64,000 nucleotides of DNA from Glutamicibacter sp. JL.03c (GTDB lineage: Bacteria > Actinomycetota > Actinomycetes > Actinomycetales > Micrococcaceae): NCBI RefSeq assembly GCF_025854375.1, contig NZ_CP107575.1, forward strand, positions 1,798,001 to 1,862,000, given 5' to 3'. The first letter of the stretch is position 1; each line of letters starts with the position of its first letter. Positions 19,629 through 28,925 of the stretch are shown piece by piece. Position numbers and translations under genes: made by a program. A model generated the notes under the pieces. It worked only from the letters and a program-made list of their open reading frames with translations, was not told the DNA's origin and did not search any database.

Positions 19629-21293
19629 CTATGCGCCCAGGACGTCTCTGCGGTTGAACCGGGCCATGCCGGCCGCCGCAAGCGCCAGCGATATCAGCAC
19701 GAGCAGCACGAGCGGGGTCCAGCTCAATTCCTCGGCCGGGACGCGCGCGATGGCGCCGAAGGGGGTCAAGCGAATGGCCTCTTGCGGCAGCGAGAACAGC
19801 CCGCCGAACATGGCCGCCATCGCCGAGAGCCCATAGACGGACCAGGTGATCGCTGTGGTGAGGCGCGGAAGGAAGCCGAAGGCCAGCAGCTGCAGGCCCA
19901 GCATCGACAGCACTGCCGGCCAGAATGCGAGGCAGGCACCGGCTAGCTGCCCTGGATCCCCTGCTCCTTGGGAGGTTGCCCCGGTCAGGGCTCCGGCAAG
20001 CAGCAGCATCAGCCCCGAGCCAAGCACCGCGATCAGCAGGTGGACGCCGAGCCACCAGCCGCGGGACAAGGCCCCGGCAAGCTGCTGCTCGAGCCGGCCG
20101 CTCTCCTCCTCGCTGCGCGCCGCGCCCAGGCACTGGATGGCAAAGGCTGCGGCCAGCAAAGCATTGAACGCCACGAAGATGCCAAGCACCCCGTCGAGCA
20201 TGCTGTGCCCGGAGCCGACAAAATTGCGGGCGAAGGGATTCTCGGGATCCAGCAGTGTGCCCATGGATCGTGCGACAGAGCCGAAGAACAGCCCGGACAC
20301 GGCGGCGCCGATGAACCAGCCGATCAGCGAAGATCGCTGCAGACGCAGCGCCAGTCCCAGCGCCGTCGTGGTGAAGGGGCCGGCAGAGGCTGCTGACCGG
20401 CGTTCGGGCAAAATGCCCGAGCCCAGATCCCGCGAGCTGCCGATGCGCAATGCCACGAGGCACCCGGCAGCGCCCAGGACAGCCAAGGCCAGCAGTGGCC
20501 ACCAGTTGTCCTCGCCGTAGGCGCGCATGTTCTGCGCCCAGCCGATGGGCGAGAACCAGCTCAGCGCGCTGGGGGCGTTGCCCTCGGCCTGCAGATCGGC
20601 TCCCGCTCGGATGAAGTAGAACAGGCCGATCAGCGCCACCGCCAGCGAGTTCGCTCCGCGGCTGGTCGAGGCGAGCTGGCCGCAGATGGCCGCCAATCCG
20701 GTGAAGGCCAGGCCGGCGCCGGCGATCGAGGCACCCATGATCCAGCTGCCGGCCACCGGCAGCGCAACCGCCAGGCACAACAGGCTGATGAGCACCCCGG
20801 TCAGCAGGCTCAGTCCTGCGGAGACCAGATAGTTCGCGCTCGGGTAGGCGTGGCGTCCCAGTGCCGTGGCGCGCAGCAATTCGGTGCGCCCTGCTTCCTC
20901 ATCGGCGCGGCCATTGCGGGTGACCAGGAAGACCACGGCGAAGGCCAATGCCACAGCCAGCGTCATCCAGATCTTGATGACCAGGATGCCTCCCAGCGAT
21001 CCCGCGGCATAGGGCAGGCCGGTCATGGCAGCCACGGCCGGGGTGTTGGCCACCTGGGCGTAGGCATCGCGCGCTTGCTGCGTGGGGAAAGCCTGTTGCT
21101 GGGAGTCGTAGACCATCGGAATCATCGATGCCAGCACCAGTGCCCAGAGGCCCAGGCGCAGCCAGTTGCGTCGAAGGATGAACCTCACTGCTATCCCGAC
21201 GCCGGCCAGCGTGCTGGTGCCGCGGGCCGAGGTGGCCGGTTGCCCCAGGCGTTCTGCCGCTGCATGGCGCCCATGGGCGGTACCCGTAGTCAT
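19629..21293 (-). CDS. ABC transporter permease (ABC-2 exporter type)
   Basis: A 554-residue integral membrane protein with two similar halves of about six hydrophobic segments each (for example AVALAFAVVFLV and LSMLGLQLLAFGFL). It resembles the permeases annotated as antibiotic or polyketide exporters in actinobacteria. Its start overlaps the ATPase gene stop by 4 bp, so the pair forms one exporter. Base composition and alanine/glycine content are clearly higher than in the core genes on either side. The transported compound is unknown. Confidence 0.88.
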   Translation of the reverse strand: MTTGTAHGRHAAAERLGQPATSARGTSTLAGVGIAVRFILRRNWLRLGLWALVLASMIPMVYDSQQQAFPTQQARDAYAQVANTPAVAAMTGLPYAAGSLGGILVIKIWMTLAVALAFAVVFLVTRNGRADEEAGRTELLRATALGRHAYPSANYLVSAGLSLLTGVLISLLCLAVALPVAGSWIMGASIAGAGLAFTGLAAICGQLASTSRGANSLAVALIGLFYFIRAGADLQAEGNAPSALSWFSPIGWAQNMRAYGEDNWWPLLALAVLGAAGCLVALRIGSSRDLGSGILPERRSAASAGPFTTTALGLALRLQRSSLIGWFIGAAVSGLFFGSVARSMGTLLDPENPFARNFVGSGHSMLDGVLGIFVAFNALLAAAFAIQCLGAARSEEESGRLEQQLAGALSRGWWLGVHLLIAVLGSGLMLLLAGALTGATSQGAGDPGQLAGACLAFWPAVLSMLGLQLLAFGFLPRLTTAITWSVYGLSAMAAMFGGLFSLPQEAIRLTPFGAIARVPAEELSWTPLVLLVLISLALAAAGMARFNRRDVLGA

Positions 21294-22222
21294 CGCACCC
21301 CACCTCCCCGGGCACCCGCCGGTGCTGGCACCTGGTCCGAGTAGTGGCGCAGGAACAGGTCCTCCAGCGATGGCGGGGTGCTGACCAGATTGCGCGGCGA
21401 ATACTGCGCCAAGGCCGCAAGGACGCCAGGCAGCTGCTCCGGGCCGACGCTGAAGCTTGCCTTGGAGCCCGAAAGGCTGAAATCCTCGATGCCCTCGACT
21501 GCCGCGAGGCTGGCCGCGGCGCCCGAGACTTCAACGGTGACTTCGGTGCGCTGCAGGTGGCGCATCTCGGAGAGGCGGCCGGCCTCAACGGTCTGCCCGT
21601 CACGGATGATGGTCACGGTATCGCAGAGCTTTTCCACTTCGGCGAAGATGTGGCTGGAGAGCAGCACGCTGCGCCCCTCCGCGGCGGCTTCGCGGATGCA
21701 GGAGGTGAAGACCTGCTCCATCAGCGGGTCCAGCCCCGAGGTCGGCTCATCGAGCAGCAGCAGCTCCGCCCGCGAGGACAGCGCGGCGACCAGGGCGACC
21801 TTCTGGCGGTTGCCCTTGGAATAGCTGCGGGCCTTCTTGGAGGGATCAAGGTCGAAACGTTCCAGCAGCTGGCCGCGGCGTTGTTCATCGACCTGCCCGT
21901 GCAGCTTTGACAGGATACTGATCGCCTGTCCCCCGGTGAGGTTGGGCCAGAGGTTCACCTCGCCCGGGACATAGGCCACGCGGCGATGCAGCGCGACCGC
22001 ATCGGCCCAGGGGTCGGCGCCGAGCATCCGGGCTGTTCCCCCGTCGGCCTTCAGCAATCCCAGCAGGATGCGGATGGTCGTGGATTTTCCCGCGCCGTTG
22101 GGCCCCAGGAATCCGGCAACCTGGCCGGTGTCCACCCGCAGGTCCAATCCTGACAGGGCGGCGGTGCGCCCGAAATTCTTGTGCAGTCCGCTCACTTCAA
22201 TGGCCTGCTTGGTGTTGGCCAT
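21290..22222 (-). CDS. ABC transporter ATP-binding protein
   Basis: A 310-residue ATPase for the downstream permease. Walker A is GPNGAGKST, Walker B LLLLDEPTSGLD, and the signature is degenerate (SYSKGNRQKVAL instead of LSGGQ), as in exporters of the DrrA/antibiotic class. A C-terminal domain after residue 230 (TVEVSGAAASLAAVEG) is typical of this group. The start at 22222 (MANTKQAIEV) is supported by AAGGAG six bases upstream; the frame stays open to 22372 but runs into the TetR gene. Confidence 0.93.
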   Translation of the reverse strand: MANTKQAIEVSGLHKNFGRTAALSGLDLRVDTGQVAGFLGPNGAGKSTTIRILLGLLKADGGTARMLGADPWADAVALHRRVAYVPGEVNLWPNLTGGQAISILSKLHGQVDEQRRGQLLERFDLDPSKKARSYSKGNRQKVALVAALSSRAELLLLDEPTSGLDPLMEQVFTSCIREAAAEGRSVLLSSHIFAEVEKLCDTVTIIRDGQTVEAGRLSEMRHLQRTEVTVEVSGAAASLAAVEGIEDFSLSGSKASFSVGPEQLPGVLAALAQYSPRNLVSTPPSLEDLFLRHYSDQVPAPAGARGGGVR

Positions 22223-22232
22223 GGCGTGCTCC

Positions 22233-22904
22233 TTACCGGGGTTGGGCAGTTCCCGCGGATCCCGCGGGCGGGACGTCGGCTGCACCGGAGGCCAGGTACT
22301 CGTTGAGGTAGGCCGGGTCGGTGAACAGCCCTTCGGAATAGAGTTCCAGTGTTGGCAGGGCGACTTGCGCATAGTATTCCTGCATCACGGTGGCGAAGTC
22401 TTCAGGATCCCGCGGCGGGTTCAGCGCGAAGTGCAATACCAGCGCACCCAGGGATTGCAGGACCAGAAAGCGTGCCCGCGCCGGCTCATTGCGGCTGGGG
22501 ACGATCAGCCCGCGCGAAACGGCCCGATCCAATAAGACGAGCGCCTCTTGGACCAATTGCCCGGTGAACTGCGCCCCCGCCTGCGCTCCCTCGCGCACCG
22601 AGCGCAGAATGTACAGAATCAGCGCCCCGCCCTCTCTGGAGCTGGGCAGGTTGCTGAACACCTGCTGGGGACTGGCCACCAGGGAATCCTCCTTCAGGCG
22701 GCGGTAGCGCTCGAGCACCGTGGCGTCGCATTCTGCCCGCAGCGCCTGCTTGGACCCGAAGTGGTGGCGCACCAGTCCCGCGGTGACCTTGGCACGCGTG
22801 GCGATCACCCGCAGGGATACACCAAATCCCTGCGCGGCGAAGGCCTCGATGGCCGCATCGCGCAGCCTGGCCCGGCCCGTCAGATCCTGCTCAGCTGTAC
22901 TCAC
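22233..22904 (-). CDS. TetR-family regulator of the ABC exporter
   Basis: A 223-residue repressor-type protein. The N-terminal helix-turn-helix is clear (LRDAAIEAFAAQGFG, ITRAKVTAGL-like VIATRAKVTAGLVRHHFGSK); the C-terminal ligand domain is helical with no assigned effector. It lies 10 bp before the ATPase gene on the same strand, so it most likely controls the exporter operon. The GTG at 22904 is the likely start but has no clear ribosome site, so a leaderless message or another start is possible. Confidence 0.87.
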   Translation of the reverse strand: MSTAEQDLTGRARLRDAAIEAFAAQGFGVSLRVIATRAKVTAGLVRHHFGSKQALRAECDATVLERYRRLKEDSLVASPQQVFSNLPSSREGGALILYILRSVREGAQAGAQFTGQLVQEALVLLDRAVSRGLIVPSRNEPARARFLVLQSLGALVLHFALNPPRDPEDFATVMQEYYAQVALPTLELYSEGLFTDPAYLNEYLASGAADVPPAGSAGTAQPR

Positions 22905-22992
22905 GTATAGGAGGCTACGCCTGTGTATAGCGGTTGGCAACGGGTGTTTCCAGGCCAGTTCCACCGGCCCGGATCCGCGTTCGGAGCCCTGT

Positions 22993-23709
22993 TCAGCTTC
23001 CCGCCCCAGCGGTCAGGATCGAAAGCGACAATCCGGCGCTGAGCAGTTGTTCCTTGACATCTCCCGGGAGCCTGAGCTCTGGAATCGCCCCGGCGAAGTG
23101 CCACCGGTGATGCTCTGCTTGCGCCCGGAGGTTCTGCAGATTCCTGCCATGCAGGGCCGTGGGATGATCGGGGAAGCTGCCCAGCAGCAGCGTTCCGTGG
23201 CGAAAGCCCCGATGGACCGCCGCCTCAAGGGTCAGGGCCGTATGGTTCAAGGTTCCCAAATCCGGGCGGGTGACCACCACGAGTCGGGCATCCACCGCGC
23301 TGGCAAGATCAGCGATCGTCGCGCCATCCGGGCTCAGGGTGACCAGCAGTCCCCCGGCGCCCTCAACCAGGACCGTGTCATATTCTGCGGCGAGCCCGAG
23401 AATCCGTTCGCGATGCTCGCCCAGCCCGGGAAGCGCCTGGACCGCGGCCTGGCCTCCGGCCACCAGTGCTGCATCAACCGGGGCCATGGGCTCGCGCAGC
23501 CGCACCCCTTCTGCGGTGCTCAACCGCTCTGGATCATCCAGCCATGCTGCAATGTTCCGCACATCGCCGGGTACGCTGTCCTCCACTCCGGATTGCGTTG
23601 GCTTGTAGATGGCCACGGTGCGTCCTTGGGCCAGCTCCCGGGCCGCCAAGGCCGCTGTTGCAACGGTTTTTCCCACATCGGTGCCGGTCCCTGAAATGGC
23701 ATGGATCAT
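22993..23709 (-). CDS. bioD: ATP-dependent dethiobiotin synthetase BioD
   Basis: A 238-residue enzyme that closes the ureido ring of 7,8-diaminopelargonate to give dethiobiotin. The P-loop GTGTDVGKTVATAAL starts at residue 7; VEGAGGLLVTLSPDG and VTRPDLGTLNHT are the next family blocks. The ATG at 23709 overlaps the stop of the P450 gene (ATGA), making it the last member of the coupled bio operon. The C-terminus is alanine/leucine-rich and of normal length. Confidence 0.94.
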   Translation of the reverse strand: MIHAISGTGTDVGKTVATAALAARELAQGRTVAIYKPTQSGVEDSVPGDVRNIAAWLDDPERLSTAEGVRLREPMAPVDAALVAGGQAAVQALPGLGEHRERILGLAAEYDTVLVEGAGGLLVTLSPDGATIADLASAVDARLVVVTRPDLGTLNHTALTLEAAVHRGFRHGTLLLGSFPDHPTALHGRNLQNLRAQAEHHRWHFAGAIPELRLPGDVKEQLLSAGLSLSILTAGAGS

Positions 23710-24902
23710 GCGCTGGCACTCCCTGTATTCCGGTCGCGGGTAATGGCCGCTTCGGGTGCCTGGAAGGAAACGAGATAGCGCCAGCGGGGGCTCGGATCGC
23801 GCAGCTCGATGCCAGGCAGCGTCGCTGCGGCCTGGTGAACCACCACCCCGGTTTCCATCCGGGCAAGGCCTGCGCCGAGGCAGCGATGCAGCCCCTGCCC
23901 GAAGGCCAGGGAATCGTCGCCCGAGGCGGCCACGTCCCCGCCGGAGAGGCGAAGCAGCAGCTCGTCCCCGGCAGCGAAGCTGTGGCCGGCAAGGGTGATA
24001 TCGCGCAGCGCGATACGGCGCCAGGTGGGCACGGAGGATGCCCGCAGCAGCACCTCGTGCACCACGCGTTCGCTGGCTGATTCCCCGCCGTCCGCCGCGG
24101 CGCAGCCGGACCAGTGCCCGTCGCGCAAGGCGGTGAACAGGGCGCTGTGGATGAGCATCGCGGTGGTCTCCTGGCCGGCGATCCACAGGAAATAGGCCAG
24201 CGAGACGATGCGGTCGCGATCCACCCCGGCGTGGCGCAGGGCTGAATAGAGGTTGCCATCATCGCGGGCCGTGGCCTCATCGACGGAATCGCGAAGCCAC
24301 CCATGGTACGCAACCGCGCTGTGCGCCAGCTCCTGCTGACGCTGGGCCCCGGGCCAGCCCCAGAACAATTCCAGCGAGTCCTTGCTCCAGGCCTTGAGCT
24401 GGTCGAGGGGCGGCAGCGGTGTGCCCGTCATCCGCGCCATCACCTCTGGCGGGATGACGTCGGCGAGTTCGCTGGCGAGGTCCAGTTCTTCACCCCGCTG
24501 ATAGCGGCCGCGCAGGTTCAGGCACAATTCGCGGGTGCGCTGGGCGATGAACTCGCGCTGCGCAGCAACCTTTGCGGGACTGAAGAACCCGGCAACCACC
24601 TTCCTGACGGCACGGTGCCCGGCCCCGGAGGCGCTGGCCAGTACCGGTGGCAGGGCAAAGCGTCCGCGGGCCAGGATGCGCAGGGTGGCAGGTTCCAGGT
24701 CCACCGCCGCCTGCAGGGCGTTGGCGGGAGTGAATTCCTCGGCATGGCGCAGGATCTCGCGGACCAGCTGGGGATCCTCGATGCTGCGATAGCGTTCGCT
24801 GATCCGCGCCGGGAGCACCTTCTCCAGCGGCTGGGCCAGCGGGGCCGTGCTGGTGGCCGAAGGCTCTGGTGCCAGCGGTGTTCGGGCGAAAGGGCAGTTC
24901 AT
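23706..24902 (-). CDS. Cytochrome P450 within the biotin operon (BioI-like role possible)
   Basis: A 398-residue soluble P450. Landmarks are the I-helix AGQETT (residues 242-247), the K-helix EVLLR (283-287) and the heme loop FGQGLHRCLG with the thiolate cysteine at 341. It overlaps bioF upstream and bioD downstream by ATGA junctions, so it is co-translated with biotin enzymes. In Bacillus subtilis the P450 BioI cleaves long acyl-ACP to pimeloyl-ACP, the precursor that BioF uses. No bioC, bioH, bioW or bioZ is seen here, so an equivalent role is a reasonable inference. Ferredoxin and reductase partners are not in the window. Confidence 0.9.
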   Translation of the reverse strand: MNCPFARTPLAPEPSATSTAPLAQPLEKVLPARISERYRSIEDPQLVREILRHAEEFTPANALQAAVDLEPATLRILARGRFALPPVLASASGAGHRAVRKVVAGFFSPAKVAAQREFIAQRTRELCLNLRGRYQRGEELDLASELADVIPPEVMARMTGTPLPPLDQLKAWSKDSLELFWGWPGAQRQQELAHSAVAYHGWLRDSVDEATARDDGNLYSALRHAGVDRDRIVSLAYFLWIAGQETTAMLIHSALFTALRDGHWSGCAAADGGESASERVVHEVLLRASSVPTWRRIALRDITLAGHSFAAGDELLLRLSGGDVAASGDDSLAFGQGLHRCLGAGLARMETGVVVHQAAATLPGIELRDPSPRWRYLVSFQAPEAAITRDRNTGSASA

Positions 24903-26080
24903 GATTCCACGTCGCTAATGGTTCGGGCCACAACCTTCAGGGCTGCGGCAAGCTCGGCTGGGTCTTGCTGTGCATGGGCGGCCAGGCGCAGGCGCGAGAT
25001 TCCATCGGGAACACTTGGCGGCCTGAAACAGGAAACTGCGATGCCGTTCTCGCGCAGCAGCGTTGCAGTCAAGAAGGCCTGTTGCGGGGATTTCATGCGC
25101 ACCGATTGCACCGGGCCGGCGGCCTGCTCAACCCGGCCAGCCAGGTTCTCTTCGGCATTCAGCAGGCGCCGGATTACCTGGGCGTTGGCTGCCAGGCCTG
25201 AGATTCTTTTCCCGGTGGCCAGCTCCAGCGCCGCATGGGCGGCCGCCGCGGCGGCCGGGGCCAGGGCCGTGTCGAAGATGAAGGTGCGGGCGGTATTGAG
25301 CAGGTGCTCGCGCCACAATTCGGCCCGGCTGCCGCCGAAGAGCACTGCTCCGCCCTGGGCCCCGAGCGCCTTGGACAGGGTCGCGGTGACCAACACGTTT
25401 TCCGTCTGGGCCAGCCCGGCAGCGTTCACGGCCGAACCGGTGGGCACGGTGGCCAGCGAGTGCGCCTCGTCAATGAGCAGCAGGGCGTTGTACTGGGCGC
25501 ACAGTTCGGCCAGCTGTTGCAGCGGAGCGGCATCCCCGAGCACCGAATACACCGACTCCACCACCACAACCACCCGCGGCTTCGGGGCGGGCGATTGGGC
25601 ATTGGCCTGCAATTTGGCGCGCACATCATCGAGGTTGTTGTGTTCGAAGCGCGCCGTGCCGGCCCCGGAAAGCCTGGCCCCGTCGATCAGGCTCGCATGG
25701 GCGTGGGCATCGAGCAGCATCAGGCTGCCGGGACCGCCCAAGGCACCCAGCAGGCCCAGGTTCGCGCAATATCCGCTGGAGAATACCAGTGCCTGGCTGC
25801 GGCCAGTGTACCGGCTGAGCTCCGCCTCCAGCTCCCGGTGGATCTGCCAGGTTCCGCTGGCAACGCGGCTGGCCGTGGCGCCGGTTCCGATGGAGTTGAG
25901 CGCGCCGATCGCCGCCTGGCGCACCCGCGGATGCGAACTGAGCCCCAGGTAGTCGTTGGATGCCAGGTCGAACAGTGCGTGGCGCGAGTTGTCGCTGCGC
26001 TGCATGTCCCTGGCGGTGCGCACTGCGGACCGGGTGCGCAGCCAGGCATCCCAGCTCGCGGTGGTGGCAAGGGTTGTCAT
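24899..26080 (-). CDS. bioF: 8-amino-7-oxononanoate synthase BioF
   Basis: A 393-residue PLP enzyme that condenses pimeloyl thioester with alanine. The fold-type I motifs are clear: FDLASNDYLGLSSHPRVRQA, GTGATASRVASGTWQIH, LIDEAHSLATVP and the PLP lysine in TATLSKALGAQGG. The gene lies one base after the bioA stop and its own stop overlaps the P450 start. GGAGG lies seven bases before its ATG. Alternative family members (KBL, serine palmitoyltransferase) are less likely in this context. Confidence 0.94.
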   Translation of the reverse strand: MTTLATTASWDAWLRTRSAVRTARDMQRSDNSRHALFDLASNDYLGLSSHPRVRQAAIGALNSIGTGATASRVASGTWQIHRELEAELSRYTGRSQALVFSSGYCANLGLLGALGGPGSLMLLDAHAHASLIDGARLSGAGTARFEHNNLDDVRAKLQANAQSPAPKPRVVVVVESVYSVLGDAAPLQQLAELCAQYNALLLIDEAHSLATVPTGSAVNAAGLAQTENVLVTATLSKALGAQGGAVLFGGSRAELWREHLLNTARTFIFDTALAPAAAAAAHAALELATGKRISGLAANAQVIRRLLNAEENLAGRVEQAAGPVQSVRMKSPQQAFLTATLLRENGIAVSCFRPPSVPDGISRLRLAAHAQQDPAELAAALKVVARTISDVES

Positions 26081-26081
26081 C

Positions 26082-27461
26082 TCAGCCTCCGTGGACCTGG
26101 TCGATGGCTCCGCACAGCGCGTCGCCCAGTTGCTGCAGCTGGCCGTCGGTGCACATGTAGGGAGGCATGACGTACGCCAGGTCCCTGAAGGGCCGGACCC
26201 AGGCGCCGCGTTCGACCGCGGCGGAGCTCAGCGCTGCGCCCTGGACGGGCTGGTGCAGCTGGATCACCCCGACCCCGCCCAGCACGCGCACCGCTTTGAC
26301 CTGCGGCAGGGTGCGTGCCGGAGCCAGCGAGGCGCGCAGCCCGCGTTCCACCCGCGCCACCTGCGATTGCCAGGGTGCTGGCCGCTCTGGCGCTCCGGGA
26401 CCGAATTCCGTGGCCGGGCCGGCGCCGGTAAGCAGGTCCAGCGAGGCGATGGCGATGGCGCAGGCCAGCGGGTTGCCCATAAACGTCGGGCCGTGCAGCA
26501 ACGCCGACGTACCGGGCGCGGCGTCCAGCGCCTGGGCCACGCGGCCCGAGCAAAGCATGGCGGCCAGCGACAGGTAGCCGCCGGTCAGCGCCTTGCCCAC
26601 GCACATGATGTCCGGCTCCACCTGGGCGTGCTGCACCGCGAACATCCTCCCGGTGCGCCCGAACCCCGTGGCGATCTCGTCGGCGATCAGCAGCAGGCCG
26701 TGTTCGTCGGCAATCTCGCGCAACAGCGCAATGGCCTGCGGAGGGTAGATGAACATGCCGCCGGCGCCCTGCAGGATCGGTTCGACAATGATGCCCGCCA
26801 GTTCATGCGCATGGGCCGCCGCGATGCGACGTGCCCCGCAGGCCCAGGCGTCGAATTCCTCGAGGTCATAGATCCAGTTGCCGTCCGCCGTGTGCTCTGC
26901 GGCAGGCGGGCGTGGCAGGAATAGCTGCTCGCTGCACAGCGGCGCGAAGGCCGAGTGCATGCCGTCGACCGGATCGCAGACGCTCATCGCGGCAAAGGTG
27001 TCCCCGTGGTAGCCTCCGCGCAGCGCCAGGAAGCGCTGGCGCCCACGGGCCCCGCAGGCCTCCTGGTACTGCAAAGCGAGCTTCAGCGCCACCTCGACGC
27101 TGATGGATCCGGAGTCGGCCAGGAACACATGGCGCAAATTCTGCGGGGTCATGGCCACGAGCCGTTCGGCCAGCTCGATCGCCGGTTCGTGGGTCAGGCC
27201 CCCGAACATGACGTGGCTGAATTTCTCGATCTGCGCGTGCGCCGCGGCGTCCAGGACCGGATTGCGGTAGCCGTGCACCATCGACCACCAGGAAGCCATG
27301 CCGTCCACGACCCGGTGCTCGGTGCCGGCGCGATCGTGCAGCAGGAGTTCTGCACCCTGCGCCCCCTTGACCGCGTAGTGCGCTCCTGCGTCCACGGGCT
27401 CATAGGGGTGCCAGAGCAGCCCCGCATCCCTGTCCAGCAGGTTTTCGGCCAGGGTTTTCAC
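26082..27461 (-). CDS. bioA: Adenosylmethionine-8-amino-7-oxononanoate aminotransferase BioA
   Basis: A 459-residue class III aminotransferase that uses S-adenosylmethionine to form 7,8-diaminopelargonate. Motifs: [12 protein letters not shown] at the start, [67 protein letters not shown] and the PLP lysine in [15 protein letters not shown]. The C-terminal third contains an alanine/proline-rich insertion ([12 protein letters not shown]). The start is a GTG that overlaps the bioB stop (GTGA). Confidence 0.95.
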
Positions 27462-28699
27462 GCGTTGGGTCCTTCCATGGTGCCAGCTCCGCGGCGGCGC
27501 AGCACTGGTTCGCGCCCGGCAGCGGCCCCGCAGCCTGCCGCCCCTGATTGAGCCGGTGCGCAGCCGGTTCCGCAGCCGGCGCCGCAGCCGCCGGCGCCTT
27601 CCTCGTCGGCGGGGGCCGGAGGCGCAGCATGAGCGGCGTCCTGCAAGCGGCGGGCCACCTCGGACGGGCTGGAGGATTCTTGCCCCAGGACGACAAAGCC
27701 CGCGTCGGCAATCATCTGCAGGTCCTTGGCCGCGCCCTGGCCTTCGCTGGTGAGATAGTCGCCAAGGAAAATCGAGTTGGCGGCTTCCAATGCGGCGGAC
27801 TGCAATGAGCGCAGGTGCATCTCGCGGCCCCCGGCAATGCGCAGCTCCTTGTCCGGGCAGGCCATGCGCACCAGTGCGAGGATGCGCAGGCAGGCCATCG
27901 GGGTCAGCAGCCAGGTGCCCTGCATCGGGGTGCCGTCGAAAGGCATGAGGAAGTTGACCGGGATGGATTCGGAGCCCAGATCACGCAGCGCGAAGATCGC
28001 TTCCACCAGCTGCTCGGGTGTTTCCCCCAGCCCCACGATGAGCCCGGAACAGGAGGAGAGTCCCGCAGACTGGGCCTGTTCCACCGTCTTGACCCGATCC
28101 TGGTAGCTATGCGAGGTGCAGATCTCGGGGTAGAGGGATTCGGAGGTGTTCAGGTTGTGATTGTAGGCGTCGGCCCCGGCGTCCTTGAGCCTGGCGGCCT
28201 GGCCGTCCTTGAGGATGCCCAGGCAGGCGCAGACCTCGACCTGCGGGTGCTCCTCCTTGAGCTGTTCGACCATCGTGGCCACTCGGTCCACATCGCGGTC
28301 GGTCGGCCCCTTGCCGGAAGCGACCATGCAGACCCGCGAGGCGCCGCCGGCAATGCCGAAGCCGGCCTGGGCCACCGCTTCATCGGGTTTGAGCCAGGTG
28401 TATTTGAGGATCTCGGCGGTGGATCCAAGGCGCTGCGAGCAGTAGGTGCAGTCTTCGGGGCAGAGTCCGGACTTGAGGTTGACCAGGTAGTTGACCTTGA
28501 CGGTGTTCCCGAAGTGCTGGCGGCGCAGGAGTCCGGCAGCGCAGATCAATGGCATCGTGGCGGAATCCGGTGTTGCGAGAATGCCCAGGGCCTCGGATGC
28601 GGTGATGCGGTGTCCGGCGAGGATCTTTTCTGCGAGCTGTCCGGGGTCCAGTCGGCTCTCCTCCGGCGCCGGGGCAGTATTTGCGATGTTCAAGTTCAT
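27458..28699 (-). CDS. bioB: Biotin synthase BioB with a Cys/Gly-rich C-terminal tail
   Basis: A 413-residue radical-SAM enzyme that inserts sulfur into dethiobiotin. The radical cluster cysteines are C80, C84 and C87 in [44 protein letters not shown] and MPFDGTP follow. After the normal barrel the protein ends with about 50 extra residues containing GCGAGCGTGC and a further cysteine, unlike short BioB proteins. The start at 28699 is supported by AAAGG six bases upstream. First gene of the bio operon, behind two BioQ-type operators. Confidence 0.95.
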
Positions 28700-28770: not shown

Positions 28771-28785
28771 TTGAACGGTGTTCAA
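28771..28785. promoter_or_regulatory. BioQ-type operator, proximal
   Basis: TTGAACGGTGTTCAA is a perfect 6-3-6 palindrome 72 bp before bioB. It matches the TGAAC-N3-GTT(C/A) type of site reported for the actinobacterial TetR repressor BioQ. The site and its position are seen; the regulator is inferred. Confidence 0.75.
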
Positions 28786-28827
28786 TTTCTATTGAATACA
28801 CACCCTACACCCTGATCAGCATGTTCT

Positions 28828-28840
28828 TGAACACTGTTCA
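28828..28840. promoter_or_regulatory. BioQ-type operator, distal
   Basis: TGAACACTGTTCA is a second perfect TGAAC-N3-GTTCA palindrome, 56 bp centre to centre from the first. Two like sites bracketing an AT-rich stretch suggest that the promoter of the bio operon lies between or over them. Confidence 0.72.
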
Positions 28841-28925
28841 GCAATATGTCGTCGAGTCCTTGCATCGACCGGCGTTCCCAGCACCAGGGCACCACTTGCC
28901 ATCCTCCTGATTCCGGGCAGCAAAA

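Follow-up and report, generated by a model that had tools for sequence, protein, structure and literature searches.

In a 64,000-nucleotide stretch of the Glutamicibacter sp. JL.03c chromosome (contig NZ_CP107575.1, positions 1,798,001 to 1,862,000; hereafter the window) a cytochrome P450 gene lies between the biotin synthesis genes bioF and bioD. We propose that it encodes a dedicated enzyme of the biotin pathway, most likely making the pimeloyl thioester used by BioF through oxidative cleavage of a fatty-acyl thioester. Genome context gives strong support to a dedicated role in biotin synthesis, since bioA is present in all 82 genomes in which this P450 was found, gene order is conserved, a putative operator is held in common with other biotin genes, the P450 co-diverges with bioF and it is subject to purifying selection. 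Most family members of the clade to which the protein belongs have, to judge from the alignments, lost hallmarks of P450s, a loss which is unusual and well documented.

Distribution and gene context of the P450

Members of the P450 clade were identified in 82 of 295 Micrococcaceae genomes at 43-100% identity, with a second P450 group lying well apart at 27-32%. Matches to bioA (TIGR00508) were present in 94 genomes of the family, 93 of them above the cut-off and one (G290) in two pieces. The P450 was found in 82 of these 94 genomes and in none of the 201 without bioA (Fisher p ~2e-60, a value which ignores kinship). Biotin genes adjoin the P450 in all 80 family loci that were fetched, which together with the window's own locus make up a set of 81 (G229, with its P450 on a 4-kb contig, was left out). 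The order bioB-bioA-bioF-P450-bioD is present in 66 of the 81 loci; a second gene order, bioB-bioA-bioF-bioD-P450 with a different bioB, occurs in six; bioA-bioF-P450-bioD with no bioB match in the stretch occurs in seven, one of them ended by a contig edge; and the remaining two loci are cut off by contig edges. An in-frame start allowing a 4-base overlap was found at 57 of 71 bioF-P450 junctions and 64 of 73 P450-bioD junctions, the junction analysis taking in 79 of the 81 loci.

Among the best 80 loci from named genomes, some of which are the same contigs as fetched family loci, biotin genes adjoin the P450 in 39/39 at ≥39% identity and in 0/41 at ≤32%, except for a weak 31% aminotransferase match in one locus (L201). 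Hosts in the former group include Arthrobacter, Glutamicibacter, Paeniglutamicibacter, Sinomonas, Specibacter, Paenarthrobacter, Propioniferax, Microlunatus, Cryobacterium and Kribbella, among others. A neighbourhood due to chance or to a single lineage is rejected by the complete agreement of the fetched family loci together with the named-genome loci that have biotin neighbours. Class-wide, 11 of 394 genomes gave a match at 1e-30; of nine such loci fetched, four adjoin biotin genes, two (L230 and L231) lie about 2-7 kb away from such genes and three (L229, L233 and L234) have none within 8 kb.

P450-less biotin operons do occur, and bioB, bioA, bioF and bioD can therefore exist without the P450. 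A survey of open reading frames (ORFs) in the 12 P450-less loci, made without family-model searches of those ORFs, yielded no nameable replacement pimelate gene, and one of the 12 (L134) had no bioF match either. In one genome (G133) bioF lies directly beside bioD without the P450 (L133, 10551-10578), although the P450 is retained by four further genomes from that genus. The P450 match is split or carries a stop in a few family loci. A Paenarthrobacter plasmid harbours a lone close relative of the P450, next to genes of dihydropyrimidinase type (L033, 7983-9125), and an Arthrobacter plasmid typed as conjugative carries the entire biotin operon with the P450 between two IS110 transposase genes (L032, 607-10611), possibly representing mobile biotin genes. 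In the second type of operon, as on this plasmid, a small Cys-rich ORF (GHCGG...PPRYCAHCRRRMKVQV) separates bioB from bioA (L032, 4540-4830) and is similar to the mycobacterial BsaP in cysteine spacing and place.

The biotin operon of the window

The initial annotation, made from the DNA sequence alone, had described a P450 ORF joined by ATGA overlaps to both neighbours in an operon ordered bioB-bioA-bioF-P450-bioD. All of this was borne out. The P450 protein matched Pfam p450 at 30.7 bits (cut-off 22.8) and solved P450s in a PDB sequence search at E-values down to 1.8e-21; the overlaps are present at 24899-24902 (bioF/P450) and 23706-23709 (P450/bioD); and bioB, bioA, bioF and bioD are the top NCBIfam names for their genes, with bioF scoring below its cut-off. 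The features are as follows.

22993..23709, reverse strand: bioD, its ATG overlapping the P450 stop by ATGA (TIGR00347, 106.9 bits)
23706..24902, reverse strand: P450 gene, subject of this analysis, 398 amino acids (ORF and translation)
23874..23903, reverse strand: heme-thiolate loop FGQGLHRCLG with Cys341 (translation and alignment)
23901..23942, reverse strand: what is left of the meander after its shortening, residues 321-334 (alignments)
24015..24038, reverse strand: SSVPTWRR (alignment of clade rows)
24045..24056, reverse strand: degenerate ExxR, residues 283-286, E-V-L-L with Leu in the Arg column (alignments)
24162..24179, reverse strand: I-helix AGQETT (translation and alignment)
24899..26080, reverse strand: bioF, ATGA overlap with the P450 start (TIGR00858, 325.6 bits, best name, below the cut-off of 426.45)
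26082..27461, reverse strand: bioA, GTG start (TIGR00508, 503 bits, above cut-off)
27458..28699, reverse strand: bioB, Cys-rich C-terminal tail (TIGR00433, 378.5 bits; the start is a judgement)
28771..28785, no strand assigned: putative biotin-regulon palindrome TTGAACACCGTTCAA (read on the reverse strand; pattern scan)
28827..28841, no strand assigned: second palindrome CTGAACAGTGTTCAA (read on the reverse strand; pattern scan)

There are two candidate starts for bioB, at 28699 and 28801 on the reverse strand, and the ATG at 28699 is likelier because the longest frame, from 28801, would cross a putative operator. The C-terminal tail of this BioB (27458-28699) is rich in Cys and Gly (GGCGAGCGTGC). 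As bioA overlaps the bioB stop there is no room for a small ORF between the two genes. On the same strand and 28 bases after bioD lie a TetR regulator, an ABC ATPase and an ABC-2 permease (19629-22964), which are not evidently related to biotin.

A palindrome common to biotin synthesis and transport genes

The two palindromes upstream of bioB have the form TTGAACA-N2-GTTCAA, a pattern discovered as common words in these loci and then tested genome-wide. With up to one mismatch it occurs in the 3.59-Mb genome only before bioB and, as a pair, before bioM-bioN-bioY; read backwards, the pattern has no occurrence in the genome. The bio operon and the biotin transporter operon thus have a putative operator in common, and this confinement places the P450 in the biotin regulon. 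When two mismatches were allowed and only the window was scanned, 2 of 100 shuffles matched the observed count. Across the family the palindrome (≤1 mismatch) was found in 71 of the 81 loci. Its 105 sites all fall where the operon begins (5′ end), 103 of them preceding the first bio match and two lying within 92 bases of it. The loci without it comprise six of the second gene order, the contig-cut L065 and L083, and L068 and L070. Of 30 short BioY loci, 10 carry it at ≤2 mismatches. A Corynebacterium-type BioQ box (TGAAC-N3-GTTAC) was found upstream of bioB in 0 of 73 cases.

Loss of the ExxR motif and the meander

In P450s the ExxR motif of the K-helix, which is almost universal, and the meander, which lies between the K′ region and the Cys loop, together hold a structural triad. 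The initial annotation had considered all P450 landmarks intact, which is true of the heme-thiolate loop (FxxGxHxCxG; FGQGLHRCLG) and of the I-helix ((A/G)GxxT; AGQETT) but not of ExxR or the meander. In ungapped alignments with BioI of Bacillus subtilis and with CREJ the ExxR columns read E283-V-L-L286. The alternative reading of EVLLR as ExxR was rejected because its spacing is wrong, the Arg column aligning with L286. Ahead of the Cys loop, the meander shows a 13-residue gap relative to BioI. Motifs could be scored in 78 of the 81 family loci, one per genome (L069, L115 and L121 were left out), and Glu and Arg of ExxR are kept together in five of these, the motif being lost in the other 73. 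The G-to-F spacing, which is 25 in BioI, is 8-17 in 74 of the 78 and is replaced by longer, unlike linkers in the other four. Of 112 usable core rows, 111 retain the Cys of the heme-ligating loop and one has an X there, and WRR is present in 112/112; these rows overlap (L056 and L136, for example, are in both the family and the named sets) and are hence not independent.

In an AlphaFold model of the protein the P450 fold is predicted to be retained with high confidence (mean predicted local distance difference test score, pLDDT, 92.2). The top PDB fold matches of the model were CREJ (5gwe, 5xjn) and CYP116B, with complexes of BioI and acyl carrier protein (ACP) in places 10-12, level with many other matches. 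Conservation of the K-helix is 0.53 in the clade against 0.80 in a control group. Conservation of the substrate site was higher in the clade than in a control, at 0.81 against 0.69 for alignment windows picked after viewing the alignment and a smaller margin of 0.85 against 0.78 for those taken from model helices, the latter difference being clear at the F/G ends alone (0.84 against 0.59); the support from this comparison is weak. Loss of the Glu-Arg-Arg (E-R-R) triad is presumably tolerated because other contacts, perhaps involving W294-R295-R296, hold the fold and the heme.

Evolution of the P450 clade

With the motif columns removed, the tree recovered the clade with support of 100/100, and BioI fell outside the clade, close to PksS and to P450s of Streptomyces; the tree from all columns agrees. 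A joint clade with BioI was marginally rejected (approximately unbiased test, p-AU 0.042, quick tree). ExxR and a meander of full length are retained in eight non-core members (L170 and L228-L234), as in all 43 outgroup rows, while in the seven rows of Kribbella and its neighbours the meander is lost and ExxR is kept in two. Parsimony required one change for the meander and five for ExxR; since the branch joining the meander-less rows has support of 91/52, a single loss of the meander is likely rather than certain. Our reading of these patterns is that the meander probably went first and that ExxR drifted afterwards. Two P450s from gammaproteobacterial metagenome-assembled genomes (L173 and L175), at 27-30% identity, have an intact ExxR, an SSVxxWRR-like motif and no bio match nearby.

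The P450 is under purifying selection, with ratios of nonsynonymous to synonymous substitution (dN/dS) of 0.11-0.36 in six pairs, the neighbouring genes giving 0.17-0.41. It co-diverges with bioF: pairwise distances for the two proteins correlate with a Spearman coefficient of 0.84, alongside 0.83 for bioF-bioA and 0.84 for bioF-bioD, with P450-bioD lower at 0.73. We tentatively suggest, as a reading with slightly less than an even claim to being right, that Micrococcaceae, Kribbella and scattered other Actinomycetota possess a second P450 route to the biotin precursor, independent of BioI in its evolution, whose enzyme lost the meander and then, repeatedly, ExxR, leaving a working P450 without the E-R-R triad.

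Proposed function and alternative sources of pimelate

In the proposed mechanism the P450 would repeatedly oxidise a long-chain fatty-acyl thioester and then cleave a carbon-carbon bond, a reaction known for BioI. The substrate would be an acyl-ACP (or an acyl-coenzyme A (CoA) or a free acid), and the resulting pimeloyl thioester would feed BioF. We infer that the enzyme is catalytically active, and its chemistry by analogy with BioI and the diiron oxygenase BioE, which provide precedents for oxidative acyl-ACP cleavage (PMC12915131).

No bioC or bioW had been seen in the initial annotation, and for the canonical families this extends to the genome: the best BioC score (TIGR02072) was 72.3 bits against a cut-off of 184.95, and BioW (PF03744) had no match at E≤1. 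The same two families were sought in 80 of the 94 genomes with bioA (68 with the P450 and 12 without, 14 being left out), and neither BioC nor BioW was found above cut-off (0/80 for each), a single BioW match of 16.3 bits falling below it. The best BioC match is, however, a Tam-like methyltransferase (L035; PRK14103, 309.7 bits, cut-off 320), and Tam is described as the mycobacterial BioC in PMC9302846. As regards the BioZ route, which uses a dedicated KASIII, the genome has three KASIII matches, two nearly alike, FabH-like and far apart (L235 and L236) and one OleA-like by inspection, none of them in the bio operon.

Several observations weigh against the proposed role. Orthology to BioI is rejected by an identity of 24% and by the trees. 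The Tam-like protein may serve as BioC here, in which case pimelate would come from a non-canonical BioC and a BioH-like esterase as in mycobacteria, and the P450 would act elsewhere in or near the pathway, for example in tailoring an intermediate. At E≤1e-40, Tam was present in 219 of 295 genomes, including 73 of the 82 with the P450 and six of the 12 with bioA alone. It does not track the biotin pathway as the P450 does, because it is also found in 140 of the 201 genomes without bioA and was missed in 9 of the 82 P450 genomes; the gene lies ~180 kb from the operon here, and seven P450 genomes (G020, G076, G090, G128, G160, G190 and G293) have neither BioC, BioW nor Tam by these models. We regard this explanation as unlikely. 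The motif losses might also mark a degraded or hitch-hiking P450 that is non-catalytic or decaying, as could be argued from the extent of ExxR loss (73/78 loci), the low K-helix conservation and the few loci with a stop or split match. The dN/dS values speak against decay, as do the conserved Cys, WRR and I-helix, the confidently modelled fold and the retention of the gene in 82 genomes, making such a protein very improbable.

A further alternative, to which we give little credence, is that the P450 makes free pimelate or uses another fatty substrate and that an acyl-CoA ligase activates the product. In Glutamicibacter an AMP-binding enzyme encoded behind bioM-bioN-bioY (L242, 7280-8716), directly after bioY and downstream of a like palindrome, would then act in the manner of BioW as a possible pimelate-activating partner. 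In a survey covering 30 of 39 BioY places this ligase was matched at 36-100% identity in 9/9 Glutamicibacter loci, but the other 21 gave only four weak matches (24-28%), while the P450 is widespread. Direct production of the pimeloyl thioester by the P450 remains the explanation which we prefer.

Comparison with known systems

What varies in biotin synthesis is where the pimelate comes from. In a 2025 paper the routes are listed as BioC-BioH, BioI-BioW, BioZ and BioE, and BioI is said to be confined to B. subtilis and to be redundant in that species (PMC12915131). Here a P450 other than BioI occupies 82 of the 94 bioA genomes of Micrococcaceae. The clade further provides a set of natural P450s in a mostly constant gene context, ranging from canonical forms to others that lack both ExxR and meander, which lets one ask what the triad is for.

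CREJ is also the top PDB sequence match of the window P450 and has WRR after the K-helix in common with it, but keeps ExxR. To our knowledge neither CREJ nor CYP116B has a link to biotin. The initial annotation had further named tight grouping with catabolic P450s unlinked to biotin genes as an outcome that would speak against a biotin role, and no such grouping was seen in the trees or in the named-genome neighbourhoods. Loss of ExxR has one precedent that we found, CYP157 of Streptomyces, described in PMC3599690 as P450s without a proper ExxR. CYP157 differs in that it is reportedly linked to conservons rather than to biotin genes, and its motif ends in Trp (EVLW, EQSLW; same source). The BioE diiron oxygenase of Elizabethkingia and Chryseobacterium cleaves long-chain acyl groups to give a pimeloyl thioester, according to PMC12915131; it is a non-heme, ferritin-like protein, unlike a P450.

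Among the papers listed in literature searches none describes this actinobacterial biotin P450, the nearest being MkpG of Streptomyces lydicus, a P450 termed a BioI homologue and proposed to make methyl-pimelate for an analogue of 7-keto-8-aminopelargonic acid (KAPA) in PMC13336041. MkpG is an actinobacterial P450 like that of the window but lies in an antibiotic cluster. BioI itself (CYP107H1) keeps ExxR and the meander, groups with PksS and is 24% identical to the window P450 over 307 aligned columns. This is below the >40% identity rule for membership of CYP107H as worded in PMC3599690, and the two do not share a clade, the window P450 belonging to one that has full support without BioI. 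The window P450 does resemble BioI in its location within a biotin operon. The earlier suggestion of an actinobacterial equivalent of BioI was thus upheld in part: the tree and identity comparisons exclude orthology, the context points to a biotin role, and BioI-like chemistry is the best explanation. The P450 may therefore work like BioI yet belong to a different P450 family.
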